A program made the position numbers and the translations under genes. This document shows, in pieces, positions 20,559-43,765 of a DNA stretch of 64,000 nt (position 1 is its first letter; the number at the start of each line of letters is the position of its first letter). The stretch spans positions 62,001 through 126,000 of the forward strand of contig SCVN01000019.1 in the NCBI GenBank assembly GCA_004296885.1. The letters run 5' to 3'. A model generated the notes under the pieces. That model worked only from the letters and a program-made list of their open reading frames with translations. It searched no databases and was not told where the DNA came from. This stretch comes from Nitrospirota bacterium. Its GTDB lineage: Bacteria; Nitrospirota; Nitrospiria; Nitrospirales; Nitrospiraceae.

Positions 20559-20564
20559 GTCCCC

Positions 20565-20787
20565 ACAAAATATACCTCCGGGTCAAGGGAAGAGGGTGCA
20601 ACTCCCTCGCGGTCCCGCCGCTGTAATGGGGACGAAACCCGCGGAAGCCACTGTCTTAACCGTGAGGCGTGAAACGTGAAACGCGGATGGGGAATGAACC
20701 CCGTTCACATTTTACAATTCACGATTCACGGACGGATGGGAAGGCGCGGGGAGTAGAGTCGAACCCTAAGCCAGAAGACCTCCCCGG
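20565..20787 (+). promoter_or_regulatory. cobalamin riboswitch 1 (before btuFCD)
   Basis: Conserved aptamer blocks appear in order: GGGAAGAGGGTGCAACTCCC, CCGCCGCTGTAATGGGGAC, GCCACTGTCT, GGGAAGGCGCGGGGAG and AAGCCAGAAGACC (20768-20780; consensus GCCAGGAGACC). Adenosylcobalamin or a related corrinoid should repress the uptake genes. Downstream, CTTTCCC (20799-20805) pairs with GGGAAAG (20816-20822), putting the GTG at 20808 in a hairpin loop, which suggests control at translation. The variable arm between GCCACTG and GGGAAGG is a heptamer-word hairpin. Confidence 0.9.
20661..20731 (+). repeat. heptamer-word inverted array inside riboswitch 1
   Basis: Left words GTGAGGC, GTGAAAC, GTGAAAC; right words TTCACAT, TTTACAA, TTCACGA, TTCACGG. 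They form the peripheral stem of the aptamer without touching the conserved blocks. Confidence 0.85.
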
Positions 20788-20807
20788 AGCATGACCGTCT
20801 TTCCCTC

Positions 20808-21884: not shown

Positions 21885-21931
21885 TGGGACTGATGGCCAG
21901 ACAGACCCAATCGGAAGGAGGGAGGGCTGTC

Positions 21932-23038
21932 GTGACGGAGCCTGTGGTGGCGGCAGGGGAATCAGCGGAGCCGCCGCGTGCCGCGCCGGTCGGGTCGTCC
22001 AGGCTGTCGCCCCTGCGGTGGCTGCTCACCCTGTCGGCCTTGGCTGCGGCCGCCGTCCTCGTGCTGCTGATCTGCCTGCAATTCGGCGCGGAGCGCATCG
22101 GACTGGCCGAAGAGATCCGGATCGTGAGCCTGGCCGTTCGTGACGGCCAGGCCGGTCTTGACTCGACCGGCGCAACCGGCGTCATTCTCATGCAAGTGCG
22201 CTTGCCGCGGGTGCTGTTGGCCTTCATGGTCGGCGGCTGTCTGGCGGCCGTCGGCGTGGGGCTTCAAGCCTTGTTGCGGAACCCTCTGGCCGATCCCTAT
22301 GTGCTTGGTATTTCCAGCGGGGCGGCGCTGGGCGCCGGGTTGGCGATCTTGTTCGGGTTGACGGGCACGGCCCTGGCCTTTTCAGCGCTGCCACTTTGCG
22401 CCATGGCCGGAGGGTTACTCTCCGTGCTCGTGGTCTACCGCATTGCGACCGCGTACGGGTATCTGCCCATTCATACCCTGTTGCTGGCCGGGGTGATTCT
22501 CAATGCCATCTTCTCCGCGCTGGTCATGTTCGTGACGTCGATCATGGAGCCGAATCGCTCGTTCGGCATGATGTCCTGGCTGATGGGGACGCTGACCGCC
22601 CCGGACTATCCGGCCATGCTTGTCCTGGCCGGCTATCTCCTGGCCGGCCTGCTCGTCCTATTCCGCCAGGCCGCCTCACTTAACCTCCTCACGCTCGGGG
22701 AAGAGTCTGCGCGTGCGCTTGGCGTGGAGGTTGAGGCCGTCAAGAAAACCGTCTTTTTTACGTCGGCGCTGCTGACGGGCGCCGTTGTGTCGGTCAGCGG
22801 GATGATCGGGTTCGTCGGCATGGTCATTCCGCATGCCATGCGCCTGCTCACCGGAGCGGACCATCGGCTGCTCTTGCCCGCCTCCGCTCTGATGGGGGGC
22901 TTGTATCTGATGGCGGCGGATACGATCGCGCGCACACTGCTGGCTCCGACGGAGATTCCGGTGGGTGTGGTGACCGCCCTGGCCGGAGGGCCGTTTTTCA
23001 TCTATCTCCTGACATCACGGAAGGGCCGGCTGGCATGA
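21932..23038 (+). CDS. btuC: cobalamin ABC transporter, permease (FecCD family)
   Basis: Inner-membrane permease with about ten helices. Motifs are RLPRVLLAFMVGGCLAAVG, GLQALLRNPLADPYVLG (the ATPase-coupling region) and MIGFVGMVIPHAMRLLTG. GTG 21932 is chosen for the strong GGAAGGAGGGAGGG five bases upstream (368 residues). ATG 21884, overlapping the btuF stop, would add 16 residues. Its stop overlaps btuD. Confidence 0.9.
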   Translation: MTEPVVAAGESAEPPRAAPVGSSRLSPLRWLLTLSALAAAAVLVLLICLQFGAERIGLAEEIRIVSLAVRDGQAGLDSTGATGVILMQVRLPRVLLAFMVGGCLAAVGVGLQALLRNPLADPYVLGISSGAALGAGLAILFGLTGTALAFSALPLCAMAGGLLSVLVVYRIATAYGYLPIHTLLLAGVILNAIFSALVMFVTSIMEPNRSFGMMSWLMGTLTAPDYPAMLVLAGYLLAGLLVLFRQAASLNLLTLGEESARALGVEVEAVKKTVFFTSALLTGAVVSVSGMIGFVGMVIPHAMRLLTGADHRLLLPASALMGGLYLMAADTIARTLLAPTEIPVGVVTALAGGPFFIYLLTSRKGRLA

Positions 23039-23937
23039 GTTTCAAGGAGACGACAGGGGTGCCCGCCTACTCGGTGGACGGGCTTCGGTTCTCCTACGGC
23101 CATCCGGGGGCGGGGCGGTCGGTCAACGGCTGGGTCCTCGACGGCCTGACCTTCGAAGTGCGCCCGGGGGAGATCCTGGGGGTCTTGGGTCCGAACGGGT
23201 CGGGGAAGAGCTCACTGCTGAAGATTCTGGCGAAGGTGCTGCGTCCGCAGGAAGGCCTGGTGACGCTCTTTGGTGACGATCTTGCCGGCATGCCGCAGCA
23301 TGACGTGGCCAGGGCCGTGGCCCTGGTGCCACAGGAGAGCCAGATCGCGTTTCCGTTCTCGATCACCGAAATGGTGCTGATGGGGCGCTTTCCCCACCAT
23401 CGGCGAAACGTCGGCCTGAGCGGTCTCGGTTGGGAAGGGCCGGAAGATATCCGCGTGGCGGAGGCGGCGATGCGGGAAACCGATGTGCTGCACCTGGCCC
23501 ACCGCTCCATCACCGATGTGTCGGGCGGGGAGCGCCAGCGGGCGGTCATTGCCCGCGCGCTGACCCAGGAGCCGAAGGTGTTGCTCCTGGATGAACCGAC
23601 AGCCTTTCTGGATCTCCACCACCAATTGGATATCTGCTCGATCCTGCGCCGGCTCAACGAAGAGCGGGGCCTGACCGTGGTCCTGGTGTCCCACGACCTG
23701 AATCTGGCCAGCCAATACTGCGATCGTCTGTTGCTGTTGGACAGGGGGCGGACCGTACGTCTGGGTCCCCCTGAAGAGGTCATGACGCCGGAGGTGCTGG
23801 AGGAGATCTATCGGTGCCGGGTCCTGGTCGACAGGCATCCCCAGTCCGGCTTGCCGAGGGTGACGCTGCCGGGCCGGAAGCTAACAGCCAGCCGTCAGCC
23901 ATCAGCGGTCGGCCCAGAGATCAAGGCGGATAGCTGA
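23035..23937 (+). CDS. btuD: cobalamin ABC transporter, ATP-binding protein
   Basis: Cytoplasmic ATPase of BtuFCD. Walker A GPNGSGKSS, signature VSGGERQRAVIARAL, Walker B LLLDEPTAFLDLHH and H-loop VLVSHDLNL are all intact. It has 300 residues and is coupled to btuC by a four-base overlap. The last 19 residues (from KLTASRQPSAVG on) are not conserved-looking and are written by a heptamer array that has extended the reading frame. Confidence 0.92.
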   Translation: MSFKETTGVPAYSVDGLRFSYGHPGAGRSVNGWVLDGLTFEVRPGEILGVLGPNGSGKSSLLKILAKVLRPQEGLVTLFGDDLAGMPQHDVARAVALVPQESQIAFPFSITEMVLMGRFPHHRRNVGLSGLGWEGPEDIRVAEAAMRETDVLHLAHRSITDVSGGERQRAVIARALTQEPKVLLLDEPTAFLDLHHQLDICSILRRLNEERGLTVVLVSHDLNLASQYCDRLLLLDRGRTVRLGPPEEVMTPEVLEEIYRCRVLVDRHPQSGLPRVTLPGRKLTASRQPSAVGPEIKADS

Positions 23938-24002: not shown

Positions 24003-24315
24003 TGGGGGCACGTAACACAGAGAGGGATAGGTCGAGAGGAGAGGCAGGCAGAACGGGGAAGATGGTGCAAGACCATCACGGTACCGCCACTGTAAGCGAG
24101 GAGCGATTCCGCAAGAACGCCACTGTCTGGAAGAAGCCGTCAGCCGTCAGCTATCAGCTATCAGCAGTCAGCTTGAATCTTGAAGCTGAAGGCCAAAGGC
24201 TGAGAGCTGATAGCTTTTGAGATGGGAAGGCGCGGGAGAGCGATGATCCGCAAGTCAGGAAACCCGGCTGTCGAGCCAGTTCACTCTACCCTTCGAGTCA
24301 AAGGGGAGGTGGGTT
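24003..24315 (+). promoter_or_regulatory. cobalamin riboswitch 2 (before the TonB receptor and cob genes)
   Basis: Aptamer blocks: GGGGAAGATGGTGCAAGACC, CCGCCACTGTAAGCGAGG, CGCCACTGTCTGG, GGGAAGGCGCGGGAGAG and AAGTCAGGAAACC (24251-24263, a variant B12 box). CTACCCTT (24286-24293) can pair with AAAGGGGAGG (24300-24309), the Shine-Dalgarno of the next gene, so translational repression is likely. The 5' boundary is approximate. The peripheral arm is again a heptamer-word hairpin. Confidence 0.88.
24136..24218 (+). repeat. heptamer-word inverted array inside riboswitch 2
   Basis: Left words GTCAGCC, GTCAGCT, ATCAGCT, ATCAGCA, GTCAGCT; right words with the complementary core (AAGCTGA, AGGCTGA, GAGCTGA, TAGCT). 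It occupies the same arm as in riboswitch 1 but uses a different word. Confidence 0.85.
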
Positions 24316-26262
24316 GTGCGGAAGTTTATCATTGGGTCGGGCATTCTGTTGGCGTTGCTATGGGGGTCCGGGGTCGGCCATGCGGAAGAAGGGACGCCGG
24401 TCGTGCAAACCGAGGAGGTCGTGACCAGCGCGACAAAAACGCCTGTGCCGGTCGGTCAACTGACCAGCGCGGTGGAGATCATCACCGGCGAAGAGATGCA
24501 GCGGCAGAAATTCAAGACGGTGGCCGATGCCTTGCGGCTGGCGCAGGGGCTGGCGGTCTTCTCCAACGGCGGGCCTGGAACCGATACGAGCGTGCGGATT
24601 CGTGGCGGAGGCGCAGCGCAGACCCTGGTGTTGATCGATGGGGCGATCGTCAATAGCGCGACGACCGGCGCCTACAATTTCGCCAACCTGACGACCGACA
24701 ATATCGAGCGGGTGGAAATCCTGCGCGGCGCCCAAAGCATGTTGTGGGGGTCGGACGCCATGGGCGGGGTCATCAACATCGTCACCAAGAGGGGCGCGGG
24801 GGCCACCGCCGCGAGTTCGTTCTTCGAATACGGGTCCTTCAATTCCATCCGCGAGGGAGCCCAGGTGACGGGCAAGAAGGGACTCGTGGACTTTTCCATG
24901 GATCTGTCGCGATGGGACTTCGCCGGATTTTCGGCGGCGGACTCCCGGCTTGGCGCGTCGGAGCGGGATTCGTTCAGGAACTGGACCGCGTCCTCGCGGT
25001 TGGGTGTGGATTTGCCCAAGGACGGTCGCCTCGAGTTCAACTTCCGCTGGATGAATGGCTCGACCAGCATCGACAACATCAGCAATCCTCCGGCCGATGT
25101 GTTTAACTCCAAGAACAAGAGCCAACAGTTTGTATTCGGTGGAAGCTACGATCAGGCGATTACCCATTGGTGGAATCAGAAATTGACGCTGGCACGGGCA
25201 GAAGAAGATGCACCGTTTTTTCCCGGCAATCTTCAGCGCAACCTTGTCACCGGCGCGCTGACGGTCCCATCCGGGTCGCCGAACACCACGCGGACGCTCA
25301 GCAACCGTCTTGAGTGGCAGCACAATATGCAAGTCGCCGATCCCCTGCTGCTCACCTTCGGCTACCAGTTCCGTGAGCAGCAGGGGGAGAATGACACGCT
25401 GGCGAAAAGAATCGTCTCGTCAAACGCGGGGTTTGCCCAGGCCCAGTTGAATCTCTGGGACCGGGTCTTCGGCACGGCCGGTATCAGGCAGGACAGCTAC
25501 AACGTGTTCGGAACGGCCACGACCTACCGGCTGACCGGCGGGTATCTCCATAAGGAAACGGACACGAAGCTCAGGACCAGCTATGGCACCGGATTCCGAG
25601 CTCCGTCGGTCAATGAACTGTATTTCGCCAACTTCGGCAATCCCAACCTCAAGGCGGAAAAAAGCCAGAGTTTCGACGTGGGGGTGGACCAGGAACTGTT
25701 CGGGAAACGGCTGAAACTCAGCGGAGGCTATTTCTGGAACCGGTATCGCGACCAGATCGTCACCACATTCGATCCCGTGGTCTGCGCTCCGTTCAGCACG
25801 TTCAGCTTCTGCCCGCTCAACGTCGGCAATTCTTCGACCAAAGGTTTTGAGGCGAGCTTCGCCTATAAGCAGACTCTGGGACTGCCCTTCATCAAAGCAT
25901 TCGATTTTCAGGGTCAGTACACCAATACGATGACGCGCGACCTGAGCAACGGGGCCCGGTTGCCGCGCCAGCCGGTGGACCAGTGGAGCCTCCAGGCAGG
26001 GTACCAACCCATCGACCCGCTGCACATCATTCTGACCGGCCGTTTCGTGGGCTCGCGGTTCAATACGACCGCCGACCGTCAGGGCATGCAGGCCTTCGAT
26101 GTGTGGAACTTGACCACCAACTATACCGTGACCAAGCACATCGAGGCCTACGTGCGCGCGGACAATCTGTTCAACCAGCGCTACCAGGAAATTCTCAACG
26201 CCGGGACGCCGGTCCGTTCGATCTATTTCGGCGTGCGGATCAACCATGACTTGTTCTCATAG
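24316..26262 (+). CDS. btuB: TonB-dependent outer-membrane corrinoid receptor
   Basis: Outer-membrane beta-barrel receptor, 648 residues. A signal peptide (KFIIGSGILLALLWGSGVGHA) is followed by a TonB box-like EEVVTSATKTPVPV and the plug domain (VADALRLAQGLAV, IERVEILRGAQSMLWGSDAMGGVINIVTK). The barrel ends in the aromatic-terminated strand YFGVRINHDLFS. Control by riboswitch 2 and the cob genes after it support corrinoids as substrate. GTG start with GGGGAGG upstream. Confidence 0.88.
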   Translation: MRKFIIGSGILLALLWGSGVGHAEEGTPVVQTEEVVTSATKTPVPVGQLTSAVEIITGEEMQRQKFKTVADALRLAQGLAVFSNGGPGTDTSVRIRGGGAAQTLVLIDGAIVNSATTGAYNFANLTTDNIERVEILRGAQSMLWGSDAMGGVINIVTKRGAGATAASSFFEYGSFNSIREGAQVTGKKGLVDFSMDLSRWDFAGFSAADSRLGASERDSFRNWTASSRLGVDLPKDGRLEFNFRWMNGSTSIDNISNPPADVFNSKNKSQQFVFGGSYDQAITHWWNQKLTLARAEEDAPFFPGNLQRNLVTGALTVPSGSPNTTRTLSNRLEWQHNMQVADPLLLTFGYQFREQQGENDTLAKRIVSSNAGFAQAQLNLWDRVFGTAGIRQDSYNVFGTATTYRLTGGYLHKETDTKLRTSYGTGFRAPSVNELYFANFGNPNLKAEKSQSFDVGVDQELFGKRLKLSGGYFWNRYRDQIVTTFDPVVCAPFSTFSFCPLNVGNSSTKGFEASFAYKQTLGLPFIKAFDFQGQYTNTMTRDLSNGARLPRQPVDQWSLQAGYQPIDPLHIILTGRFVGSRFNTTADRQGMQAFDVWNLTTNYTVTKHIEAYVRADNLFNQRYQEILNAGTPVRSIYFGVRINHDLFS

Positions 26263-26275: not shown

Positions 26276-27694
26276 ATGGCAGTTCCTCGTCTCGTCATTG
26301 CCGGGACCCAGAGCAATGTCGGCAAGACCACGGTGACCCTGGCCCTGCTGGCCGCCTTGCGGCAGCGGGGCCGGAAAGTCCAGCCGTTCAAGGTGGGGCC
26401 GGACTATATCGACGCGGGGCACCATACGGCAGCCACGGGCCGGCCCTCGCGCAATCTGGACGGATGGATGTTGACGGCCGAAATCAATCGGGAGATATTT
26501 TCCCATGCCTCCGCCGATGCGGATCTGGCCGTCATCGAGGGCATGATGGGGCTCTTCGACAGCAGCTCGGCGAGCAGCGAGGTCGGCAGCACGGCCGAGA
26601 TGGCCAAGCTGCTGGGGGCTCCGGTTCTCCTCGTGATTGACGGGAGTGCCATGGCTCGGTCGGCGGCGGCGATGGTGGCCGGCTATGCCAAGTTCGATCC
26701 GGCCCTGACGGTGGCCGGCGTCCTCTGCAATCGTGTGGGCAGCGAGGGTCACTTTCAGTTGCTCAAGGAAGCGGTAGAGACGGAGACCAGAGTGCCGGTG
26801 GTTGGGTACCTGAAGCCGGACAAAACCCTGACGATCGGCGACCGGCATCTTGGGTTGCGGACCGCCATTGAACAGGGTTCGACGGACCTCTATGACAAGC
26901 TGGGGCGGGCGGCGGCCGAGACCGTAGATTTGGACAAGGTGGAAGCTCTGGCGAGCAGCGTGAAAGGTGAATGGTTAGAGGTGAAAGGGATGAAGGCATC
27001 CTCTCACGGTTCACCATTCACTTCTCACCAATCGGTACGCGTCGGTGTTGCCTACGACGCGGCGTTTTGCTTCTACTATCAGGAAAATCTGGAGCTGTTG
27101 GAAGCGGAGGGGGCTGAGTTGGTGCGGTTCTCGCCGATTCGAGATCGAGTCTTGCCGGCCATAGATCTGCTCTACTTGGGCGGGGGCTATCCGGAGTTGT
27201 ATGGCGAGGCGTTATCAGGAAACAGCGCCATGCGACTGGCAATCCGGGGCTTTGCCGACCGAGGAGGGGCGATCTACGCCGAATGCGGGGGGATGATGTA
27301 CCTGACACAAGCGATCCGCGACTTCGAGGGGCGGGGCCACGAGATGGTCGGGCTATTCCCGGCCGAAGCTGTGATGCGCAAGCCAGGCCTGACCCTGGGC
27401 TATCGTGAAATTGAACTGATGAGGCCTTGTGTGATCGGAGCGGCCGGCCTGAAGGTCCGAGGGCATGAGTTTCACTACTCCTCGCTCGTCTCCATGGGAT
27501 CGCTCGACTATGCCTGTGCCGTGACGGATGCGAAGGGACAGCCACGGTCGCCGGATGGGTTGGTACGAGGCAATACGGTGGCCCTCTATGCCCATCTTCA
27601 TTTTTCAAGTCAGCCGGCTGCGGCACGTGCGCTGGTGGCATCCGCAAGGGCCTGGCGCACGCAGGGTGCTGAGGGAAAAGGAGTGTCGTTGTGA
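26276..27694 (+). CDS. cobB: cobyrinic acid a,c-diamide synthase
   Basis: Amidates the a and c side chains of cobyrinic (or hydrogenobyrinic) acid with ATP and glutamine; often called CbiA in anaerobic-pathway organisms. The N-terminal P-loop domain has GTQSNVGKTTV (residues 10-20) and FKVGPDYIDAGHH. The C-terminal glutaminase has Cys337 in YAECGGMMYLT. Residues about 229-252 (SVKGEWLEVKGM to SPFTSHQS) are encoded by a heptamer-word inverted array inserted in the interdomain linker. The family pattern resumes at VRVGVAYDAAFCFYYQ. Its stop overlaps cobO (GTGA). Confidence 0.94.
   Translation: MAVPRLVIAGTQSNVGKTTVTLALLAALRQRGRKVQPFKVGPDYIDAGHHTAATGRPSRNLDGWMLTAEINREIFSHASADADLAVIEGMMGLFDSSSASSEVGSTAEMAKLLGAPVLLVIDGSAMARSAAAMVAGYAKFDPALTVAGVLCNRVGSEGHFQLLKEAVETETRVPVVGYLKPDKTLTIGDRHLGLRTAIEQGSTDLYDKLGRAAAETVDLDKVEALASSVKGEWLEVKGMKASSHGSPFTSHQSVRVGVAYDAAFCFYYQENLELLEAEGAELVRFSPIRDRVLPAIDLLYLGGGYPELYGEALSGNSAMRLAIRGFADRGGAIYAECGGMMYLTQAIRDFEGRGHEMVGLFPAEAVMRKPGLTLGYREIELMRPCVIGAAGLKVRGHEFHYSSLVSMGSLDYACAVTDAKGQPRSPDGLVRGNTVALYAHLHFSSQPAAARALVASARAWRTQGAEGKGVSL
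26960..27031 (+). repeat. heptamer-word inverted array inside cobB
   Basis: Left words GTGAAAG, GTGAATG, GTTAGAG, GTGAAAG; right words TCTCACG, GTTCACC, ATTCACT, TCTCACC. Exact period seven and complementary arms, entirely within coding sequence and without a stop in the cobB frame. Confidence 0.88.
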
Positions 27695-28290
27695 CGGACG
27701 ATGCCGAGCATCAGGCCCGGATGCAACGCCTGAAGGCCTCCGTAGACCGGCGCATCGAGGCGGCCCAGGAGGAAAAGGGATTGGTGATCGTCTACACAGG
27801 CGCGGGGAAGGGAAAAACTACCGCCGCCTTGGGCATGGCCCTGCGCTGTATCGGCCACGGGATGAAAGTGGCCATCGTGCAATTCATCAAGGGCGCGATC
27901 GATACGGCGGAGGAGCGGGCTCTTAAGAGCTTCGGTCCGCAGGTCGTCTTTCTGCGGATGGGCGAGGGATATACCTGGGAGACGCAGGATCGAGCGCGGG
28001 ACACGGACATGGCGCAGAAAGCCTGGGCCGCCGCGTCGGAGTTCCTTCGGGATCCGGCCTATGCGATGGTCATTCTGGACGAGTTCAACATCGCGCTCCA
28101 GCATGACTATGTCCAGCTTGCCGACGTGCTGCCGGTGCTCCAGGCCAGGCCGCCCATGCAACACGTGGTCATCACGGGCCGAGGCGCCAAGAAGGAGCTG
28201 ATCGAAGCAGCCGATCTTGTCACGGAGATGGGACAGGTGAAGCATCCGTTTCGGAAGGGCGTCAAAGCCCAAAAGGGAGTCGAGTTCTAA
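27691..28290 (+). CDS. cobO: cob(I)yrinic acid a,c-diamide adenosyltransferase (CobA/CobO/BtuR type)
   Basis: Transfers the 5'-deoxyadenosyl group from ATP to the cobalt of reduced corrinoids. It has 199 residues, with P-loop VYTGAGKGKTTAALGMALR, the RMGEGYTWETQD corrinoid-binding loop, MVILDEFNIAL and VVITGRGAKKELIEAADLVTEM. It starts at GTG overlapping the cobB stop. It acts directly after CobB, before CobQ. A second, unrelated adenosyltransferase lies at 29458. Confidence 0.95.
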   Translation: MTDDAEHQARMQRLKASVDRRIEAAQEEKGLVIVYTGAGKGKTTAALGMALRCIGHGMKVAIVQFIKGAIDTAEERALKSFGPQVVFLRMGEGYTWETQDRARDTDMAQKAWAAASEFLRDPAYAMVILDEFNIALQHDYVQLADVLPVLQARPPMQHVVITGRGAKKELIEAADLVTEMGQVKHPFRKGVKAQKGVEF

Positions 28291-28480: not shown

Positions 28481-28489
28481 GAGAAGTAG

Positions 28490-29363
<874 letters not shown>

Positions 29364-29364
<1 letters not shown>

Positions 29365-29446: not shown

Positions 29447-29457
29447 GGGGAAGAGCG

Positions 29458-30057
29458 ATGCGCATTACCAAAGTTTACACACGCACCGGCGATGCGGGCA
29501 AAACTCGCCTGGCAGGCGGGCAGCAGATCTGGAAGGACAGTCTGCGGGTAGAGGCGTACGGCACGCTGGATGAGGTCAACGCGTCGATCGGCTTGGCGCG
29601 GGTCTTCAATGCCGAGGCTGCCGAGCCCAAGACCGGACCGGTCCTTGAGGAGTATCTTCGGTGGGTGCAGAACAAGCTCTTCGACACCGGCGGCATCTTG
29701 GCTACGGCCCCCGGCCAGACGTTTGCGAACATGCCGCAAGTGACCGCGCAGGATGTGACCAGGCTGGAGCGAATGATCGACGCCTGTCAGAAAGATCTGG
29801 CGCCGCTCAAGGAGTTTATCCTGCCGGGGGGCGGCAAGGTGTCCGGCCACTTGCATCAAGCCCGGACCATTTGCCGCAGGGCCGAACGGCTTTGCGTGAA
29901 GCTGGCCAAGGAAGAGCCGGTGGATGGCGTCATCGTGAAGTTCGTAAATCGCCTCAGCGACGCCCTCTTCGTGCTGGCCCGCTGGGCCGCCAAGAAACAG
30001 GGGGAACCGGAGTTTCTCTGGGAGCGGACCACGAAAACGCGGGATAATGAACGATGA
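29458..30057 (+). CDS. cob(I)alamin adenosyltransferase, PduO type
   Basis: A 199-residue PduO-family ATP:corrinoid adenosyltransferase. Diagnostic segments: VYTRTGDAGKTRLAGG, RVEAYGTLDEVNASIGLAR, FILPGGGKVSGHLHQARTIC and NRLSDALFVLARW. It is structurally unrelated to the CobO type upstream and usually works on salvaged cobalamin or cobinamide. GGGGAAGAG lies before the ATG. Its stop overlaps the next heptamer array. Confidence 0.93.
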   Translation: MRITKVYTRTGDAGKTRLAGGQQIWKDSLRVEAYGTLDEVNASIGLARVFNAEAAEPKTGPVLEEYLRWVQNKLFDTGGILATAPGQTFANMPQVTAQDVTRLERMIDACQKDLAPLKEFILPGGGKVSGHLHQARTICRRAERLCVKLAKEEPVDGVIVKFVNRLSDALFVLARWAAKKQGEPEFLWERTTKTRDNER

Positions 30058-30125: not shown

Positions 30126-30131
30126 GAATTC

Positions 30132-31628
30132 ATGGCTGTACGCACCTTAATGGTTCAGGGTACGGCGTCGCACGTGGGCAAGTCCGTGCTCGTGACGGCC
30201 CTCTGCCGGCTGTTCGCGCGGCGCGGGGTCAAGGTCGCGCCCTTCAAGGCGCAGAACATGTCCAATAATTCCTTCGTCACGCCGGACGGAAGGGAAATCG
30301 GGCGCGCCCAGGCGGTGCAGGCGACGGCTTGCCGGTTGGCCCCTCGGACGGATTTCAATCCGGTGCTGATCAAGCCCTCCGGCGAACGGAGCGCCCAGTT
30401 GGTGGTGAACGGGCTGGTGGCCGGGCGGTTGGAGGCCTCCGATTTTGGCCTGGTTAAGCGAGCGCACTGGTCTGCCGTTTGCGAGGCCTTTGCCCGGTTG
30501 GCCGGGGAGTTCGACGTGGTCATTCTCGAAGGAGCCGGCAGCCCGGCCGAAATCAATCTGCGCGACCGGGACATCGTGAATATGGCCATGGCACGGGAAG
30601 CGCAGGCGCCGGTTATCCTGGCGGGTGACATTGATCGGGGCGGGGTCTTTGCGGCACTGGTGGGGACCTTGGCTTTGCTTGAGCCGGAGGAGCGTGCCCA
30701 CGTCAAAGGATTTCTGGTCAACAAGTTTCGCGGCGATGCGGATCTGCTGACGCCGGGCGTCAAGATGGTGGAAGCCCGGTGCGGGATCCCTTGCCTGGGC
30801 GTGGTGCCCCATTGGCACGATCTCCAGGTGCCGCAGGAAGACTCGCTGGGATGGGAAGACCGGCATGACGCCACGTCCCGGCTGACGGATACCCTGACGG
30901 TCGGCGTCGTGGACGTGCCGGCCATTTCGAATTTCACCGACTTCGACGCGCTGGCTTGTGAACCGGATGTCCGTCTGGTCCGGGTCGCCGGGCCGATCAC
31001 CCAGCCGCTCGATGCGTTGCTCTTCCCCGGCACCAAGAACACGGCCGAAGCGCTGCGTTTCGTGAAGGCACGGACGCTCGACCAGGTTGCCCGGCAGGTG
31101 CTGGCTGCCGGGGGAAAGATCGTGGGGCTCTGCGGAGGGTTTCAACTGTTGGGCAAGCGGATTCTCGATCCGGACCGGGTCGAATCGTCGGAGGGCGAGC
31201 TTGAAGGCTTGGGGCTGCTGAATGTGACGACCAGCTTTGCTCGAGACAAGGTTACGGTGGGGGTGAGCGGACGTCACCCGGCGAGCGGCTCTCCGGTGGA
31301 AGGGTACGAAGTGCACATGGGCCGAACCAGTTTGGGCGCAGGAGCCGTTCCTTGGTTGGAGGTCCGGGCCCCCGGTGAGGCAGCCATGCGGCCTGAAGGG
31401 GCCAGCTCGGAGGACGGTCTTGTGCTCGGCACCTACGTTCACGGACTCTTCGATGCGGTGGCCTTTCGACGGGTCTTTCTCAATTGGCTCCGTGAGGCGC
31501 GAGGCTGGGCTCCCCTGCCGGTGCAGCCGGGGACTTCCCTGGATGAACAGATCGACCGGCTGGCCGATTTTATGGCCAAGCATCTGGACCTGGCGGCCAT
31601 TGATGCGATTCTTGAGCGGGGGCTCTAA
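30132..31628 (+). CDS. cobQ: cobyric acid synthase
   Basis: Amidates side chains b, d, e and g of adenosylcobyrinic acid a,c-diamide to give adenosylcobyric acid (CobQ/CbiP). It has 498 residues. The N-terminal domain has MVQGTASHVGKSVLVTALCR and APFKAQNMSNNSFVTPDG. The C-terminal glutaminase has Cys334 in GLCGGFQLLGKRI and the TYVHGLFD His region. ATG start just after a heptamer hairpin. Confidence 0.95.
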   Translation: MAVRTLMVQGTASHVGKSVLVTALCRLFARRGVKVAPFKAQNMSNNSFVTPDGREIGRAQAVQATACRLAPRTDFNPVLIKPSGERSAQLVVNGLVAGRLEASDFGLVKRAHWSAVCEAFARLAGEFDVVILEGAGSPAEINLRDRDIVNMAMAREAQAPVILAGDIDRGGVFAALVGTLALLEPEERAHVKGFLVNKFRGDADLLTPGVKMVEARCGIPCLGVVPHWHDLQVPQEDSLGWEDRHDATSRLTDTLTVGVVDVPAISNFTDFDALACEPDVRLVRVAGPITQPLDALLFPGTKNTAEALRFVKARTLDQVARQVLAAGGKIVGLCGGFQLLGKRILDPDRVESSEGELEGLGLLNVTTSFARDKVTVGVSGRHPASGSPVEGYEVHMGRTSLGAGAVPWLEVRAPGEAAMRPEGASSEDGLVLGTYVHGLFDAVAFRRVFLNWLREARGWAPLPVQPGTSLDEQIDRLADFMAKHLDLAAIDAILERGL

Positions 31629-31630
31629 CA

Positions 31631-31702
31631 GTGAAATCGGTCAGGCGTCAGGGGGGAGGCGTGAAGGCTAAAAGGAAGAGCCCAAGCCGCTCACGTTTCA
31701 TG
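31631..31702 (+). repeat. heptamer-word array at the start of cobU
   Basis: Words GGTCAGG, CGTCAGG, GGGGAGG, CGTGAAG form the left arm; CGCTCAC and GTTTCAT form a short right arm. The reading frame stays open through it, so it may be read as an N-terminal extension of CobU. Confidence 0.65.
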
Positions 31703-32227
31703 TCTTCCCGGCGCGGGCGGCTGATTTTCATACTGGGCGGAGCCGCGTCGGGAAAGAGCGAGACAGCCCTTGCGATGGCGGGTAACGCCGGTCCCAGGGC
31801 CTTCGTAGCGACCGGGCAACCCTTGGATGGCGAGATGGCCGAGCGTATCCGCCGGCACCAGGCCTCGCGGCAGGCAGACTGGCGGACCGAAGAAGTGCCG
31901 GTGGATCTGGCCGGCTGGTTCGACAAGCAGGGCCGGACTTATCGGATCATCCTCGTGGATTGTCTGACCCTCTGGCTGAGCAATCTGCAAGGCCGCGGCG
32001 TTCCCGAATCGCAGGTGCCGGCGCTGGTTTCCGAGCTGCTGCGCGCGATCAGGGCCGTTAAGGCACGGGTCGTGGTTGTCAGCAACGAACTGGGCCTGGG
32101 GCTGGTGCCGACGGATGTCTCCGCCAGGCGGTTCCGGGACCTGGCGGGGCGGGTCAACCAACAGTTTGCTGCGGAGGCGGATGAGGCCTATTTTGTGGTC
32201 AGTGGTCTGCCGGTACGAATCAAGTAA
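31700..32227 (+). CDS. cobU: adenosylcobinamide kinase / adenosylcobinamide-phosphate guanylyltransferase
   Basis: Phosphorylates adenosylcobinamide and activates it as the GDP derivative for CobS. P-loop FILGGAASGKSETAL, the guanylylated-histidine region RIRRHQASRQADWRTEE, VDCLTLWLSN and VVVVSNELGLGLVP are visible. ATG 31700 gives 175 residues and the usual short N-terminus, but lacks a Shine-Dalgarno. GTG 31631 or 31661 would add a basic extension encoded by the heptamer array. Confidence 0.92.
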   Translation: MSSRRGRLIFILGGAASGKSETALAMAGNAGPRAFVATGQPLDGEMAERIRRHQASRQADWRTEEVPVDLAGWFDKQGRTYRIILVDCLTLWLSNLQGRGVPESQVPALVSELLRAIRAVKARVVVVSNELGLGLVPTDVSARRFRDLAGRVNQQFAAEADEAYFVVSGLPVRIK

Positions 32228-32257
32228 CGTGATCAGACAGCAAGGAGTTGCGAGAGG

Positions 32258-33310
32258 ATGCTGAAGGAAGCCATCGATGCGGTCCGGCCAGTTGATCGGG
32301 AGGCCCAGGCTCGTGCGCAGGCTCGTCTGGATCGGCTGACCAAGCCGGTCGGGAGCCTGGGGCGGCTGGAAGAGCTGGCTGCTCGGTATGTCTCGATTAC
32401 GGGCAAGATTCCCCCTCCCATGCCGCGAGCCGCGATCTACACCTTTGCCGCCGATCACGGAATAGCTGGCGAGGGGGTCAGCGCTTACCCCAGCGCCGTG
32501 ACTCCACAAATGGTGTTGAACTTTCTTCGGGGCGGCGCGGCGGTCAATGTCCTGGCCCGTCACGCGGGGGCCGAGGTCCGGGTCGTGGATATCGGTGTGG
32601 CCTATGACTTCGGGCCAATGCCGGGATTGATCGGCCGGAAAATTGCCGCCGGGACCAAGAATTTCTCCGTGGAGCCGGCCATGAGCCGTACCGAGGCCGA
32701 GTGTGCCTTGCTGGTCGGCGTGGAACTGGCTGCGCAAGCGGCGCAAGAAGGCATCGGTCTCATCGGCACGGGCGACATGGGGATCGGCAACACGACCCCC
32801 AGTGCGGCGATCACCGCCGTTGTGACAGGGACGCCGGTCGCCGTGGTGACCGGTCGGGGCACGGGCATTGATGACGAAGGGTACAGGCGTAAAGTTGCGG
32901 TCATTGAACGGGCTTTGGCGCTGCACCGGCCCGATCTTCACGATCCGTTGGATCTGCTGGCCAAGGTAGGCGGGTTTGAGATCGCCGGGCTCGCCGGACT
33001 GATCATCGGGGCTGCCGGCCACCGGATTCCGGTCGTTCTGGACGGCTTCATTTCCGGCGCCGCGGCGCTGGTGGCGGCGGCCTTGCAACCGCTCTGCCGG
33101 GAATTCATGATGGCCTCCCATCTCTCCGTGGAGCAAGGGCACCAGGCTGTGCTCCGCCACCTGAACCTCAAGCCCTTGTTGGCCCTGGATCTCCGTCTTG
33201 GCGAGGGGACCGGCGCCTGTTTGGGCATCGGTCTCGTACAGGGTAGCCTCAAGATTCTGACCGAGATGGCCACTTTCGGCGAAGCCGGCGTCTCAGAACG
33301 TGAAAGGTAA
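32258..33310 (+). CDS. cobT: nicotinate-nucleotide--dimethylbenzimidazole phosphoribosyltransferase
   Basis: Makes alpha-ribazole phosphate from nicotinate mononucleotide and the BluB product. It has 350 residues. Motifs: LDRLTKPVGSLGRLEELA, TFAADHGIAGEGVSAYP, GTGDMGIGNTTPSAAI and the catalytic Glu in LRLGEGTGACLG. The ATG is preceded by GAGAGG. It follows cobU by 30 bases. Confidence 0.95.
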   Translation: MLKEAIDAVRPVDREAQARAQARLDRLTKPVGSLGRLEELAARYVSITGKIPPPMPRAAIYTFAADHGIAGEGVSAYPSAVTPQMVLNFLRGGAAVNVLARHAGAEVRVVDIGVAYDFGPMPGLIGRKIAAGTKNFSVEPAMSRTEAECALLVGVELAAQAAQEGIGLIGTGDMGIGNTTPSAAITAVVTGTPVAVVTGRGTGIDDEGYRRKVAVIERALALHRPDLHDPLDLLAKVGGFEIAGLAGLIIGAAGHRIPVVLDGFISGAAALVAAALQPLCREFMMASHLSVEQGHQAVLRHLNLKPLLALDLRLGEGTGACLGIGLVQGSLKILTEMATFGEAGVSERER

Positions 33311-33327
33311 ACAGTAAGACGTGAATG
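33299..33327 (+). repeat. single-arm heptamer-word array, cobT-cobS
   Basis: Words CGTGAAA, GGTAAAC, AGTAAGA, CGTGAAT in exact period seven, covering the end of cobT. No complementary right arm is seen. Confidence 0.65.
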
Positions 33328-33362
33328 GGAAGACCGGTGCATCGGGCCCCTCATCATGTACC

Positions 33363-34124
33363 ATGCACTGTGTGCGGCCGTTCGTGATCGCCTGGCAGTT
33401 TCTGACCGCAATCCCGGTGGCCCGTTCCTGCGACGATCCAACGCCGGAGGAGCTGGCTTCGTCGATGGGCTGGTATCCGCTCGTCGGCTTGATCCTGGGA
33501 GTGATCCTTGCGGCAAGCGATTTCCTGCTCGCCCAGGTCTTCTCGGACCATGTCGTGAACGGGTTGCTCATCGTTTTGCTGGTCGTCTTGACCAGGGGCC
33601 TGCATCAGGACGGCTTGGCCGATACCCTCGATGGGTTGGCGGGCGGGCGGAGTCCGGTCGAACGGCTGGCGATCATGCGCGATGGTCGGATCGGCGCGAT
33701 CGGCGCCACGGGCCTTGCGCTGGTTTTGGGGCTCAAGTATGCGGGCTTGACGGACCTGCCGGACGAGGGGCGGCTGTCCCTCCTGCTCTGTCTGCCCGCG
33801 GCCGGACGATGGGCCATGGTGGTGAGCGCGATCTCGGCTCCCTATGCACGATCCGAAGGAGGCCTGGCCCAACCGTTCATTGCGCACCTGTCGATGCGGC
33901 ATGTGGCCTGGGCCACCGGCTTGCTGGGACTCGCGCTTCTCTGGGCCGTCGGTCCGGTCAGCGCCTTGACCTGTCTGGCTGTTCTGGGGATCGCGGTCTA
34001 TGCCATGACCCTCTTCGCCCGTCGGCTCTTCGGCGGCATCACCGGCGATACCTTGGGCGCGGTCAATGAAATCGTGGAAGTCCTGTTTCTAATGGCGGCT
34101 CCGTTATTCTTCGGTCAGCGATGA
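33363..34124 (+). CDS. cobS: adenosylcobinamide-GDP ribazoletransferase
   Basis: Integral membrane enzyme joining adenosylcobinamide-GDP with alpha-ribazole (phosphate) to give cobalamin (phosphate). The CDP-alcohol-transferase-like acidic motif is LHQDGLADTLDGLAGG, and a second conserved stretch is RDGRIGAIGATGLALVLGLKY. About six helices. ATG 33363 gives 253 residues and the usual short lead before FLTAIPV. GTG 33321, in the heptamer words, would add 14 residues. The end overlaps cbiB in ATGA. Confidence 0.93.
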   Translation: MHCVRPFVIAWQFLTAIPVARSCDDPTPEELASSMGWYPLVGLILGVILAASDFLLAQVFSDHVVNGLLIVLLVVLTRGLHQDGLADTLDGLAGGRSPVERLAIMRDGRIGAIGATGLALVLGLKYAGLTDLPDEGRLSLLLCLPAAGRWAMVVSAISAPYARSEGGLAQPFIAHLSMRHVAWATGLLGLALLWAVGPVSALTCLAVLGIAVYAMTLFARRLFGGITGDTLGAVNEIVEVLFLMAAPLFFGQR

Positions 34125-35074
34125 CCGGGTCGTCGCTTCTGCTGGCCTGTCTGCTCGATGCCTGGTTGGGCGATCCCCGTTGGTTTCCCCATCCGGTGCG
34201 GCTCATGGGCCGGTGCATCGCCCGGTATGAAGCGACGATCCGGCGAGTCGCGCAGCGTCCGGTGGGGCTTCGATTGGCCGGTCTTGCGCTCGCGATTGGT
34301 TTGCCGATCGGCGTCTGGGCCGCCGGGTGGGGCCTGATCCGGCTGGCCGGGTTGGTGCATCCGCTGGCGGCGACCGGTGTGGAAATCCTGCTGGCCTATA
34401 CCACGCTGGCCGTCAGAGACCTGGCCGATCATGCGGCCCTCGTCTTACGCGCACTACGGGGCAGTACGTTAGAGGAGGCACGAGCCGCAGTCTCTCACAT
34501 CGTGGGGCGTGATACCGACTCCTTGTCTGAACCCGACGTGGTGCGGGCGACGGTGGAGACCATCGCCGAAAGCACGGCGGATGGCGGGATCGCTCCGCTT
34601 TTTTATCTGGCGCTGGGCGGGGCGCCCCTGGCGCTGGCCTTCAAGGCCGTCAGCACCCTGGACTCCATGGTGGGGCATCGCGATGCACGCTATCGAGACT
34701 TCGGGTGGGCTTCCGCCCGCCTGGACGATGCGGCCAATTGGATTCCGGCGCGCCTGGCTGCCTGTTTGCTGGTTCTGGCTGGGGGACTCACCAGGTTCCG
34801 TGCCGACCTGGTCGTGCGTGCCTGGTCCATTGTCATGCGCGACGCGGGCAAGCATGAGAGTCCCAACAGCGGCTGGCCCGAGGCGGCCATGGCGGGAGCG
34901 TTGCAAGTCCAGCTCGGCGGTCGGAACGTCTACGAGGGGATCGTCATCGAGCTGCCACGCATCGGAGACTCGGGCCAGGCCTTGCAGACGGATCATATCC
35001 GACAAGCGTTGGTCCTGATGGCGACGGCTTCGGTCTTGGCGACCGGGTTGGCGGCCGCCTGGCGGTTCGCATGA
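34121..35074 (+). CDS. cbiB: adenosylcobinamide-phosphate synthase
   Basis: Membrane protein that attaches (R)-1-amino-2-propanol phosphate to adenosylcobyric acid (named CobD in the aerobic-pathway nomenclature). It has 317 residues; motifs LLDAWLGDPRWFPHPVRLMG, VGRDTDSLSEPDVVRATVET and MVGHRDARYRDFGWASARLDD are typical. ATGA overlaps at both ends indicate tight coupling with cobS and cobD. Confidence 0.94.
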   Translation: MTGSSLLLACLLDAWLGDPRWFPHPVRLMGRCIARYEATIRRVAQRPVGLRLAGLALAIGLPIGVWAAGWGLIRLAGLVHPLAATGVEILLAYTTLAVRDLADHAALVLRALRGSTLEEARAAVSHIVGRDTDSLSEPDVVRATVETIAESTADGGIAPLFYLALGGAPLALAFKAVSTLDSMVGHRDARYRDFGWASARLDDAANWIPARLAACLLVLAGGLTRFRADLVVRAWSIVMRDAGKHESPNSGWPEAAMAGALQVQLGGRNVYEGIVIELPRIGDSGQALQTDHIRQALVLMATASVLATGLAAAWRFA

Positions 35075-36165
35075 AGACGGTTCCTGCCCATGGCGGCAAT
35101 GTGTACGAAGCCGCTCGCGCGAGCGGGCGCCCGATCGGCCGGTTGACGGACTTCAGCGCCAGCATCAATCCGCTCGGTCCCTCACCGGCTGCCGTCCGGG
35201 CCTTGCGGCATTCGCTGCCCCAGCTCGTCCATTATCCGGACCCAGACTGCCTGACGCTCAGGCGAGCCCTGGCGAAACGTTGGCGTCTGGCGTCCGACCA
35301 GATCCTGGTCGGGAACGGTTCGACCGAATTGATCCATTTGCTCCCGCGCGCCCTTGGGATTCGCCATGCGCTGCTGATCGGCCCGACCTTTTCAGAATAT
35401 GCGCGCGCCGTGGCATTGGCCGGAGGGCGGATCAGCTATCTGCATGCCAGGCGGAGCGAGGGCTATCGTCCGCCGCTTGAGCGGGTGCTGCACGCGATGC
35501 AGCACAGCCGAAAGCCGGTGGATGCGATCTTCCTCTGCAACCCCAACAGCCCGACCGGTCGGGCCGTCGGGGCGGCATCGGTGCGGGCCCTGGTGCGGGC
35601 GGCGGCTCGGCGCCGCATTCGGGTTATCCTGGATGAGACGTTTGTTGAGTATTGCGCGGAGCGGTCGGTGCTCCGTGACGTCCCGCGCTCGGCCAATCTG
35701 CTGGTCCTGCGAAGCTTTACTAAATTCTACGCCATGCCGGCCCTTCGTCTCGGCTACCTGGTTGGAGCCGTGCCGCTCATTCAACGGGTCCGTGCGCTCC
35801 AGCCCCCCTGGTCGGTGAATACGCCGGCCCAGGTGTTCGCCCTGGCCGCTCTTGGAGACCAAGGCCACGCCAACCGCAGCCTGGCCTCCGTGCAACAGGA
35901 GCGAGCCCGCTTCGTTATGAACCTGAAGGCCCTGCCAGGGGTGACGGTCTATCCTTCGGAGGCCAACTTCCTGCTGCTGGAATTGCCGATGGCACTGTCC
36001 GCTCGCGTCTGTGCCGAAGCCTTGGCCCGCCGAGGCCTGCTGATCAGGGACTGCTCCTCGGTGCCCGGTTTGAATCGACGAACGGTTCGAGTGGCGGTAC
36101 GCCGCCGGATGGAGAATTGCCGTCTGGTGACCGCCCTGTGCAAGTGGATCGGAGCGCAAGCGTGA
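35071..36165 (+). CDS. cobD: L-threonine-O-3-phosphate decarboxylase
   Basis: PLP-dependent aminotransferase-fold enzyme (Salmonella CobD; CobC in Pseudomonas nomenclature) producing aminopropanol phosphate for CbiB. It has 364 residues. N-terminal DFSASINPLGPS and YPDPDCLTLRRALA, substrate loop CNPNSPTGRAVG, and the PLP lysine in SFTKFYAMPALRLGYLVG are present. HisC is the close paralogue, but the cob-operon position and HGGNVYEAAR start favour CobD. The stop overlaps the cbiZ GTG. Confidence 0.92.
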   Translation: MKTVPAHGGNVYEAARASGRPIGRLTDFSASINPLGPSPAAVRALRHSLPQLVHYPDPDCLTLRRALAKRWRLASDQILVGNGSTELIHLLPRALGIRHALLIGPTFSEYARAVALAGGRISYLHARRSEGYRPPLERVLHAMQHSRKPVDAIFLCNPNSPTGRAVGAASVRALVRAAARRRIRVILDETFVEYCAERSVLRDVPRSANLLVLRSFTKFYAMPALRLGYLVGAVPLIQRVRALQPPWSVNTPAQVFALAALGDQGHANRSLASVQQERARFVMNLKALPGVTVYPSEANFLLLELPMALSARVCAEALARRGLLIRDCSSVPGLNRRTVRVAVRRRMENCRLVTALCKWIGAQA

Positions 36166-36956
36166 CCCGCCGCTCTTCCATCGAAACCCGCTTCCTGGTG
36201 GAGAGCGAGACTCTGCTGATCGACCTGGAGAAGCGGTTGAAGATCCTGTCCTCCGCTTCCTGTCACGGCGGGCTGGTCCGGGCCCGGTACATCATGAACC
36301 ATCAGGTTCCGGCCAATCCGGTCGCGGCGCCATCTGCTCCATCCGGACGCAAGTGGACGGATCCCGCGAAGTACTTGAAGCAAGTGGCCGGCGGGCTGGG
36401 AGTGGTCGGCGAAGCGGTGGCGCTCATGACCGCGGTCCCGATGAAACAACTCGTGACGTTGCGTGAAGAAGCGGACGGTGTGTGGGTCGAAGGGTTTGTC
36501 ACCGTCGGCGTGACCAATGCCGTGCGGGCCGGGGATCCGGTGAAACCGGCGGCGGCGGATCGACACGCCAAGCCTGGCACGATCAACATTATCCTGGTCA
36601 CCAATGCGCGCCTGGCCGATTCGGCCATGGTCGGGGCGGTGCAAGTGTTGACGGAAAGCAAGGCGGCGGTGCTCCTTGCCGCGGGCGTTCCCAGCTGGAG
36701 CGGCCGTCGGGGAGCCACCGGGACCGGCACCGACGCGGTGGTCATTGCCTGCGGAGCCGGCCGGAGTGGCCCGCAGCTCCGTTACAGCGGGACCCACACC
36801 AAGATCGGAGAGCTGATCGGGCGGCTGGTCATGCGGGGGGTGAACGAGGGGCTGAAGCGGTCGGAGCGGTGGTTGAAACGGAGGCTTGCCCAGGGCGATC
36901 GGCAGGCCGCCATGAAAAGAGCTTTCCCGCTTGCAGCGCAAGATAAATCCTTGTAG
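36162..36956 (+). CDS. cbiZ: adenosylcobinamide amidohydrolase
   Basis: Removes the aminopropanol arm from adenosylcobinamide (or from cobamides with unsuitable lower ligands), giving adenosylcobyric acid that re-enters synthesis at CbiB. It has 264 residues. Family-typical segments are VTVGVTNAVRAGDP, GTINIILVTNARL and GATGTGTDAVVIACG followed by YSGTHTKIGELIGR. The GTG start overlaps the cobD stop (GTGA). Last gene of the operon. Confidence 0.88.
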   Translation: MTRRSSIETRFLVESETLLIDLEKRLKILSSASCHGGLVRARYIMNHQVPANPVAAPSAPSGRKWTDPAKYLKQVAGGLGVVGEAVALMTAVPMKQLVTLREEADGVWVEGFVTVGVTNAVRAGDPVKPAAADRHAKPGTINIILVTNARLADSAMVGAVQVLTESKAAVLLAAGVPSWSGRRGATGTGTDAVVIACGAGRSGPQLRYSGTHTKIGELIGRLVMRGVNEGLKRSERWLKRRLAQGDRQAAMKRAFPLAAQDKSL

Positions 36957-37091
36957 CATAAGGCCTTATTTTTGGTATCGCTTGAACGGCGGTACGGTTT
37001 TGTAGAGATGATCGCGTGCTTCGACGAAACGGCTGAAGCACTGATATCTTGCGTGGTCCGGATCCTGGGCCGCACAACCGAGGAGGACATT

Positions 37092-37826: not shown

Positions 37827-37943
37827 AGAGCTGGCGGGAGTCGGCGCGATGTTCCGTCGGGAATCCAGGCGGAACATCAGCCTATGGCGGCAAGCTGGGT
37901 TGCAGGAGACGGTTGCACGAAGTGAAAGGGAGGCCTAGTTCCA

Positions 37944-38306: not shown

Positions 38307-38338
38307 CATCCCGGTCCGTTTCGGCGTGGTGGGCAATC

Positions 38339-38851: not shown

Positions 38852-38921
38852 CTGAGGCGCGGGTAAGGATAGGCCTGAGGGCCCGTCCTTGGCCCTCCCC
38901 CGGACGACAAGGAGGCGAGGC

Positions 38922-40793: not shown

Positions 40794-40843
40794 TCTCCGA
40801 TTCGACCCGGCTCCCGGGTGAGGTGCGCGAGCATGAGGTCTCG

Positions 40844-43705: not shown

Positions 43706-43765
43706 GTCGCCGCCGGCGGGCTTGTCTTCAGGCGAACCGGCGCAGGCAGGGGAGGGTAGCGGCAC

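Follow-up and report, generated by a model that had tools for sequence, protein, structure and literature searches.

We examine a stretch of 64,000 nucleotides from a Nitrospirota bacterium (assembly GCA_004296885.1, contig SCVN01000019.1, positions 62,001 to 126,000; hereafter the window), and in it the gene cbiZ, which is predicted to encode an adenosylcobinamide amidohydrolase and is the last gene of a cobalamin (B12) cluster that runs from 20563 to 36956 on a single strand (Table 1). An earlier note on this DNA had placed CbiZ together with BluB and CobT (lower ligand), BtuB and BtuFCD (uptake) and CbiB, CobU and CobS (reassembly). Profile searches confirm the arrangement: uptake, CbiZ, CbiB, CobD, CobU, CobS, CobT and a source of the lower ligand, 5,6-dimethylbenzimidazole (DMB), are co-located, with the uptake genes recognised at superfamily level only. 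Every biosynthetic gene of the cluster exceeds at least one curated cut-off. For the btu genes, we take the substrate to be a corrinoid because of the two cobalamin riboswitches and the cluster context. Neighbouring genes overlap by 1-4 bases at cbiA/cobA, CWC/bluB, cobS/cbiB, cbiB/cobD and cobD/cbiZ, which fits a reading of the whole cluster as one transcript; this co-transcription is predicted from gene layout, while the genes themselves, their order and the riboswitches are seen directly.

An uninterrupted reading frame for cbiZ extends from a TTG at 36117 through 36956. We infer that translation starts within it at the GTG at 36162, a codon that overlaps the cobD stop (TGA) and gives a protein of 264 amino acids. 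The Pfam match of the window protein to CbiZ (E 2.6e-55, cut-off 27; 188.1 bits with the GTG start) covers positions 2-191 of the 191 in the profile, that is, its whole length; Pfam names no other family on the protein, and the genome search returned this as the single CbiZ match in the host. The fused CbiS form, in which CbiZ is joined to an alpha-ribazole phosphatase, scores 95.9 bits against a cut-off of 250 and is matched over model positions 3-204 of 335 only, so by sequence the enzyme is of the stand-alone kind and the fused form is excluded. Ten residues (S30, T90, T114, N119, G139, T140, N142, T188, T190 and D191) are unchanged in all 93 CbiZ sequences that we compared, a set made of the window protein, 80 named loci (the best 80 of 143 CbiZ relatives) and 12 others including Rhodobacterales, Dehalococcoides, Cytobacillus and other Nitrospirota.

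Table 1. Features of the cobalamin cluster, in coordinates of the window
Feature	Coordinates	Strand	Evidence
Cobalamin riboswitch upstream of btuF	20563..20801	+	Rfam RF00174 84.1 bits, gathering 31.5
btuF-like periplasmic binding protein	20808..21884	+	PF01497 107.4 bits; NCBI BtuF model 127 against cut-off 234
btuC-like permease	21725..23038	+	PF01032 286 bits; NCBI BtuC models 257.8 and 214.8 against cut-offs 461 and 334
btuD-like ATPase	23035..23937	+	PF00005 110.2 bits; NCBI BtuD model 120.4 against cut-off 281
Cobalamin riboswitch upstream of btuB	24012..24285	+	Rfam RF00174 85.4 bits
btuB-like TonB-dependent receptor	24316..26262	+	PF00593 and PF07715; TIGR01779 251.8 bits against cut-off 599.7
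cbiA/cobB, cobyrinate a,c-diamide synthase	26276..27694	+	NF002204 513.5 bits, cut-off 254
cobA/cobO, corrinoid adenosyltransferase	27691..28290	+	TIGR00708 239.5 bits, cut-off 167.75
Cys-rich CWC protein, 62 amino acids	28490..28678	+	PF14375 30.8 bits, cut-off 24; similar genes in related loci
bluB, 5,6-dimethylbenzimidazole synthase	28678..29364	+	TIGR02476 281.9 bits, cut-off 150
pduO-type corrinoid adenosyltransferase	29458..30057	+	TIGR00636 181.6 bits, cut-off 108.45
cobQ/cbiP, cobyric acid synthase	30132..31628	+	NF001989 598.6 bits, cut-off 273
cobU, cobinamide kinase/guanylyltransferase	31631..32227	+	NF004469 168.8 bits, cut-off 161
cobT, lower-ligand phosphoribosyltransferase	32258..33310	+	TIGR03160 460.8 bits, cut-off 319.3
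cobS, cobalamin synthase	33321..34124	+	TIGR00317 128.5 bits, cut-off 110
cbiB, adenosylcobinamide-phosphate synthase	34121..35074	+	TIGR00380 219.5 bits, cut-off 165.9
cobD, L-threonine-phosphate decarboxylase	35071..36165	+	TIGR01140 298.9 bits, cut-off 290.55
cbiZ, adenosylcobinamide amidohydrolase	36162..36956	+	PF01955 187.9 bits; start overlaps cobD stop
Gly139-Thr140 codons of CbiZ, proposed nucleophile site	36576..36581	+	Invariant in 93 of 93 sequences; fold match; inferred

Next, we consider what the host can make and what it needs. Its genome is Nitrospira-like, has a size of 3.26 Mb and is rated 100% complete. CbiC is required by both corrin-ring pathways, and the search for it gave no match in this genome. 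Two tetrapyrrole methylases are encoded and no more: one is a uroporphyrinogen methylase fused to HemD (SUMT-HemD), for siroheme, and the other, at 165.4 bits slightly under its cut-off of 167.9, is read from its sequence as the rRNA methylase RsmI. Because CbiC was not found and just these two methylases were, the host probably makes no corrin ring, CbiC and the tetrapyrrole methylases being the ring genes covered by the search. The genome also encodes enzymes of B12-dependent kind, namely MetH, two ribonucleotide reductases assigned to the B12-dependent class (NrdJ; both exceed the TIGR02504 cut-off, and the second falls under that of NF006417) and the C-terminal domain of methylmalonyl-CoA mutase, while the genome search found no MetE, the B12-free methionine synthase. 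With the ring marker absent and B12 enzymes present without the substitute MetE, the gene content indicates that the host is probably a corrinoid auxotroph and salvager. Published work agrees in two cases: N. marina requires B12, lacks ring synthesis and can salvage several intermediates (PMC8115632), and a freshwater Nitrospira culture has a partial pathway (PMC12542776).

Taken together, we consider it very likely that the cluster serves a Nitrospira-type bacterium, itself apparently unable to make the corrin ring, as an operon for corrinoid salvage and remodelling. The activities and substrate choices in the following scheme are predicted from the enzyme families. BtuB and BtuFCD would import complete cobamides, cobinamide or late ring intermediates, and CobA or PduO would adenosylate them. 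CbiZ would then cleave the amide bond that holds the aminopropanol arm, yielding adenosylcobyric acid; CobD and CbiB would add a new arm, CobU would activate it, and BluB, CobT and CobS would attach DMB, with the scavenged corrinoids emerging as B12 for MetH, NrdJ and methylmalonyl-CoA mutase. Parallel entries would be open to intact cobinamide at CobU and to cobyrinate at CbiA/CobQ. The trio cbiB-cobD-cbiZ is the set that such a scheme calls for, since CbiB takes as its substrate what CbiZ yields, and the arm comes from CobD. The earlier note had likewise proposed that the locus imports foreign cobamides or cobinamide, strips them and rebuilds them as B12; gene content, the lack of the ring marker and the B12 enzymes without MetE speak for this, and the action on cobamides is a prediction.

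How general is this equipment among relatives? We used two draws of genomes, one spread over genera (61 related genomes, 37 of them from the same family, in 22 genera) and one across the phylum (245 genomes, with the same-family rows listed coming mostly from few genera). In the first, CbiZ occurs in 24 of 61 genomes and in 21 of the 37 from the same family (13 of 22 genera; 17 of the 26 same-family genomes that are at least 90% complete). Phylum-wide it occurs in 79 of 245 genomes, one of these under cut-off, and is present in 64 and absent from 9 of the same-family rows listed; 146 rows lacking a match, which come after those of the same order, are outside that list. By these searches CbiZ is common in the Nitrospira family. 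All 80 named loci belong to Nitrospira or other Nitrospirota records with the exception of one contig labelled Nitrosospira, whose CbiZ falls among Nitrospira in the tree; the closest CbiZ among the best 80 of 143 loci, at 82% identity, comes from a Nitrospira metagenome-assembled genome (MAG). The earlier note described CbiZ-based remodelling as studied mainly in archaea and Rhodobacter, which is too narrow a view of its distribution: CbiZ is annotated in 1041 species, or 9.1% of an 11,000-species bacterial set (PMC6461909), and cobamide remodelling has been reported for Dehalococcoides, Vibrio, Akkermansia and algae (PMC7733943).

The gene neighbourhood identifies the tight partner of CbiZ, which is cobD rather than BluB. 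Of the 80 named loci, 78 have cobD ahead of cbiZ, the aligned ends being a median of 39 bases apart; the two exceptions are a locus cut by its contig end (L067) and one with none of the labelled genes in 7.4 kb upstream (L119). For BluB the counts are looser. Among the 61 relatives, 19 carry both BluB and CbiZ, 5 CbiZ only, 4 BluB only and 33 neither (Fisher p 8e-8, a value that ignores kinship), and where a named locus extends 6.5 kb or more upstream of cbiZ, bluB is present in 41 of 56 cases; many of the remaining 15 retain cobA-CWC-pduO with bluB missing in between. Since 5 of the 24 CbiZ genomes are without a BluB match, CbiZ does not require endogenous DMB. Strains of this kind would, from their gene content, have to import a lower ligand, and in a soil survey free DMB exceeds total cobalamin (PMC6908642). 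The tie between CbiZ and self-made DMB that the earlier note drew is thus right for this cluster, which does carry bluB, and too strong for the family; its interpretation is otherwise sound in outline.

Two loci stand apart in these comparisons. In L059 (genome G057, family f3) a divergent CbiZ near 9625, 33% identical to that of the window, lies between bluB and pduO and joins Rhodobacterales enzymes on a long branch of the quick tree. In L080 (Nitrospiraceae AM_1104) cbiA is matched in two pieces at 1624-2621, residues 1-72 and 286-458, cobA and bluB were not found, and pduO to cbiZ are matched over most of their length; either the upper part of the operon has decayed or the assembly is in error.

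Several of the observations count against the salvage-and-remodelling operon and are best weighed together. BtuB, BtuC, BtuF and BtuD belong to the right superfamilies and fall below the NCBI B12-specific cut-offs. The complete route also needs an alpha-ribazole-phosphate phosphatase and an L-threonine kinase, which are outside the gene set searched. In the draw spread over genera, 16 of the 37 same-family genomes gave no CbiZ match, the BluB-CbiZ association takes no account of shared ancestry, and the five CbiZ genomes lacking BluB belong here as well. We found no published activity data for a CbiZ of the Nitrospira lineage. N. defluvii and soil Nitrospira (PMC6908642) and comammox MAGs (PMC11865330) have been reported as cobalamin producers. 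Finally, cobinamide salvage could proceed without CbiZ, because CobU retains the P-loop-like motif GGAASGKS (by sequence inspection).

The last point bears also on a rival explanation, in which CbiZ serves mainly for cobinamide salvage, as in methanogenic archaea, and leaves complete cobamides untouched. Such a role would suit the tight linkage of cbiZ to cbiB and cobD, genes that use cobyric acid, and the retention of CbiZ in the genomes without BluB, where one would not expect rebuilding with a ligand of the cell's own making. We nevertheless consider it unlikely. With the CobU motif in place cobinamide could probably be salvaged without CbiZ, and a quick tree of 41 of the 93 CbiZ sequences sets the Nitrospirales enzymes on the Rhodobacterales side, apart from other Nitrospirota and Dehalococcoides (support 85, with long branches, so that we use it as a hint only). 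The CbiZ of R. sphaeroides, a tested bacterial case, is reported to cleave pseudocobalamin and not cobalamin in vitro (PMC7733943).

A second rival would have CbiZ act in quality control, recycling corrinoids made or damaged in the cell rather than imported foreign ones. It draws on the ring marker CbiC, which occurs in five of the 61 relatives, all five with BluB: three with CbiZ (G003, G032 and G036) and two without (G012 and G028). That 3 of 24 CbiZ genomes carry CbiC is a further point against the salvage-and-remodelling reading. In the other 21, the host among them, CbiC was not found (4 of the 21 are less than 90% complete), and uptake genes behind cobalamin riboswitches open the cluster, which together make the recycling role improbable in our judgement. 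One of the three genomes with both CbiC and CbiZ, G032, also has a second bluB (G032:C1:2016694-2017296), about 7 kb from its cbiC, beside the bluB of its cbiZ cluster. We retain salvage and remodelling of imported corrinoids as the reading of the cluster.

We now consider how CbiZ itself might work. A sequence search of one PDB copy, taken to E 10, matched no chain to the CbiZ protein or to the CbiZ profile, and we relied on two predicted structures. The first is an AlphaFold2 model of the window CbiZ (52 sequences, mean predicted local distance difference test, pLDDT, 85.3). The second, of L134 (pLDDT 86.3), a relative that belongs to a different family, is a repeat and not independent because all 29 rows of its alignment are also in the first. 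With VIA-align the top 27 entries for the first model reach Z 12.0-14.7 over 177-215 residues at root-mean-square deviations (rmsd) of 3.0-7.5, with one row at 11.9. They are NylC, Nyl50, BapA, ThnT, DmpA, Pyrococcus PH0078, a Burkholderia beta-aminopeptidase and ornithine acetyltransferase, and the first row after them is an aldehyde oxidase at Z 6.5. The second model finds the same families at Z 12.1-14.7 over 171-199 residues, with the following row at Z 7.7; over both models the aligned residues number 171-215 and the rmsd is 2.9-7.5 except for one row at 11.9, and the rows below Z 8 are aldehyde/xanthine oxidases and LpdD. Foldseek places the same families on top (best E 9e-6), with modest TM-scores by query length of 0.36-0.47 over the 27 matches with E up to 0.001. 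The models suggest that CbiZ is shaped like the self-processing hydrolases of the DmpA/NylC/BapA/ThnT/ornithine-acetyltransferase kind. This is a statement about a modelled fold, and we do not claim CbiZ as a member of the DmpA/NylC-type hydrolases.

Profile comparison leaves this kinship unconfirmed. With hhalign, CbiZ against DmpA has P 0.0088 for narrow profiles and 0.095 for wider ones, neither significant, and profiles of the unrelated CobD, CobA, BtuB, BluB and CobS reach P 0.035-0.089 against CbiZ, all below the 0.095 of DmpA. The comparison with ArgJ gave no match (P 0.16 and 0.18). ArgJ rows with stops (L220, L223 and L234) were excluded from the first comparison, and the wider profiles also left out ArgJ rows L215, L226 and L233 (one empty, two short) and a 9-residue DmpA row (L195). 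As a separate observation, the host genome also encodes a DmpA-type P1 peptidase (G000:C5:17957-18982), which scores 400.2 bits against PF03576; of 73 same-family genomes, 71 have a match to this peptidase family.

If the modelled shape is right, a nucleophile may be sought where these enzymes have theirs. NylC cleaves itself at Asn266/Thr267, with Thr267 as the nucleophile and Lys189 and Asn219 presumed catalytic (PMC6021441). Ahead of the hhalign comparisons, Gly139-Thr140 of CbiZ had been named as the expected counterpart of this cleavage site. In the first model a strand begins at Thr140, and the best local hhalign alignment with the P1 peptidases, GTINIILVTNARL on GSIIVVIATDAPL, sets Gly139-Thr140 over the DmpA-family G-S, with a score that is not significant. 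We also compared spacing in 14 rows, hand-chosen from the 54 at Z at least 12 as those whose nucleophile number is given in the title or otherwise known (several are the same protein, and for DmpA we take Ser250 to be the position). Measured to the last aligned residue, the distance from Thr140 agrees to within 4 residues with that from the known nucleophile in 10 of the 14 rows (NylC, BapA and DmpA) and is off by 9 to 15 in the other four, three of ThnT and one of BapA; for the likewise invariant Thr114 it is off by 12 to 30, and it is nearer than Thr140 in one ThnT row. From model and spacing, Thr140 is our candidate for the CbiZ nucleophile.

We regard it as quite possible, without calling it probable, that CbiZ, the canonical enzyme of cobamide remodelling, is an unrecognised branch of the DmpA/NylC/ornithine-acetyltransferase fold, with Thr140 (after Gly139) as a nucleophile that is possibly freed by self-cleavage and cuts the corrin side-chain amide, and that in Nitrospira, nitrite oxidisers of global importance that are mostly CbiC-less, it is common equipment for turning neighbours' cobamides into B12. 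Among the open-access papers that the searches listed, we found none that links CbiZ to the DmpA/NylC fold or gives a CbiZ structure or nucleophile. The competing view is that the shape is convergent and that the reaction proceeds through a metal or a residue other than Thr140. It can point to a DmpA profile comparison no better than that with CobD (P 0.035), to a protein without a sequence match to any PDB chain, to the modest Foldseek scores and to the ThnT rows, where Thr140 misses the spacing by 12 to 15 residues and, in one row, a different invariant Thr is the better fit. Against it stand the gap in both models between the matched families and the next rows (Z 12-14.7 across 171-215 residues, then just 6.5 and 7.7), the presence of amide hydrolases among the matched structures and the constancy of Thr140 in 93 of 93 sequences. 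We rate convergence as the less probable account, though one to be taken seriously.

Some details of the cluster and its surroundings remain. The true starts of the btuF-like and btuC-like genes probably lie further in than 20808 and 21725. Between cobA and bluB, the CWC stop codon ends on the very base with which the start codon of bluB begins. An open reading frame (ORF) of 114 amino acids at 28318-28662 was considered as a gene here and dropped when its conserved stretch proved to be the CWC gene in another frame; a new RNA upstream of bluB, considered because the DNA there is more conserved than the protein of that ORF, was dropped likewise, the conservation being that of the CWC gene, and Rfam gave no match at E up to 1 over the stretch upstream of bluB. 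CWC-like genes are found by tblastn in 75 of 98 loci and, where 32 loci were inspected singly, in all 13 that have BluB and in 16 of the 19 that do not. The protein may, judging from its sequence, handle a metal or a corrinoid. Cobalamin riboswitches occur in 7 of 14 related 20-kb loci (10 matches; L044-L047, L049, L051-L054, L056 and L058-L061 were scanned, and L048, L050, L055 and L057 left out), some of these stretches ending short of the region upstream of btuB. Directly downstream of cbiZ, at 36972-47669 on the + strand, lies a chemotaxis gene set with a Tll0287-like sensor, CheY, CheW, a methyl-accepting chemotaxis protein (MCP), a CheA-like kinase and others. Of the 63 named loci that extend 5.5 kb or more downstream, 54 have CheY no further than 6 kb from cbiZ and 33 have a Tll0287-like gene somewhere downstream.

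In soils, waters and treatment plants, Nitrospira drive both the oxidation of nitrite and complete ammonia oxidation. Should a large part of the lineage live on scavenged corrinoids and be able to remodel foreign ones, nitrification would depend on the cobamides of the surrounding community and be buffered against their variety. The predicted DmpA/NylC-type fold and the candidate nucleophile would open the unexplained amidohydrolase CbiZ to mutagenesis, and it is this testable mechanism, along with the ecological reach of Nitrospira, that raises the interest of the locus. The remodelling system itself is of a kind already known. New against the material searched are the wide occurrence of CbiZ in the Nitrospira family and its constant place behind cobD, both as read from sequence, together with the predicted fold and the persistence of CbiZ in genomes that lack BluB and that lack CbiC.

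It is useful to set the cluster beside the systems that it most resembles. We found no description of CbiZ in Nitrospira in the literature searched, and the main text on N. marina (PMC8115632) makes no mention of CbiZ, remodelling, BluB, CobT, pseudocobalamin or lower ligand. What N. marina shares with the window genome, as predicted here, is the lack of ring synthesis, the conversion of cobyrinate and cobinamide, and a MetH, ribonucleotide reductase and mutase that are all B12-dependent. As in R. sphaeroides remodelling, CbiZ would begin the removal of a foreign lower ligand and the later steps would reuse salvage enzymes (PMC7733943); unlike that system, no ring-synthesis marker was found in the window genome, and cbiZ stands behind cbiB-cobD, whereas in Qingshengfaniella (Rhodobacterales) it comes directly after the uptake genes. 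The archaeal cobinamide-salvage system has the same named enzyme, with adenosylcobyric acid entering at CbiB, and an anticorrelation of CbiZ with DUF71 has been reported (PMC3541065). It differs in that the window's BluB and CobT would supply DMB and its CobU would give a parallel cobinamide route. With the DmpA, NylC, BapA, ThnT and ornithine-acetyltransferase hydrolases, several of which cut amides, CbiZ shares a predicted fold (Z 12-14.7) and an invariant Gly-Thr where a strand begins, but no significant sequence or profile similarity, and in CbiZ self-cleavage and the nucleophile are proposals. The CbiZ of Dehalococcoides mccartyi, encoded on plasmid pDhc6, belongs to the same annotated family at 27% identity over 84% of the window protein; there, unlike in the window, cbiZ lies outside any B12 operon and shares its 5.9-kb plasmid with a gene for a reductive dehalogenase.

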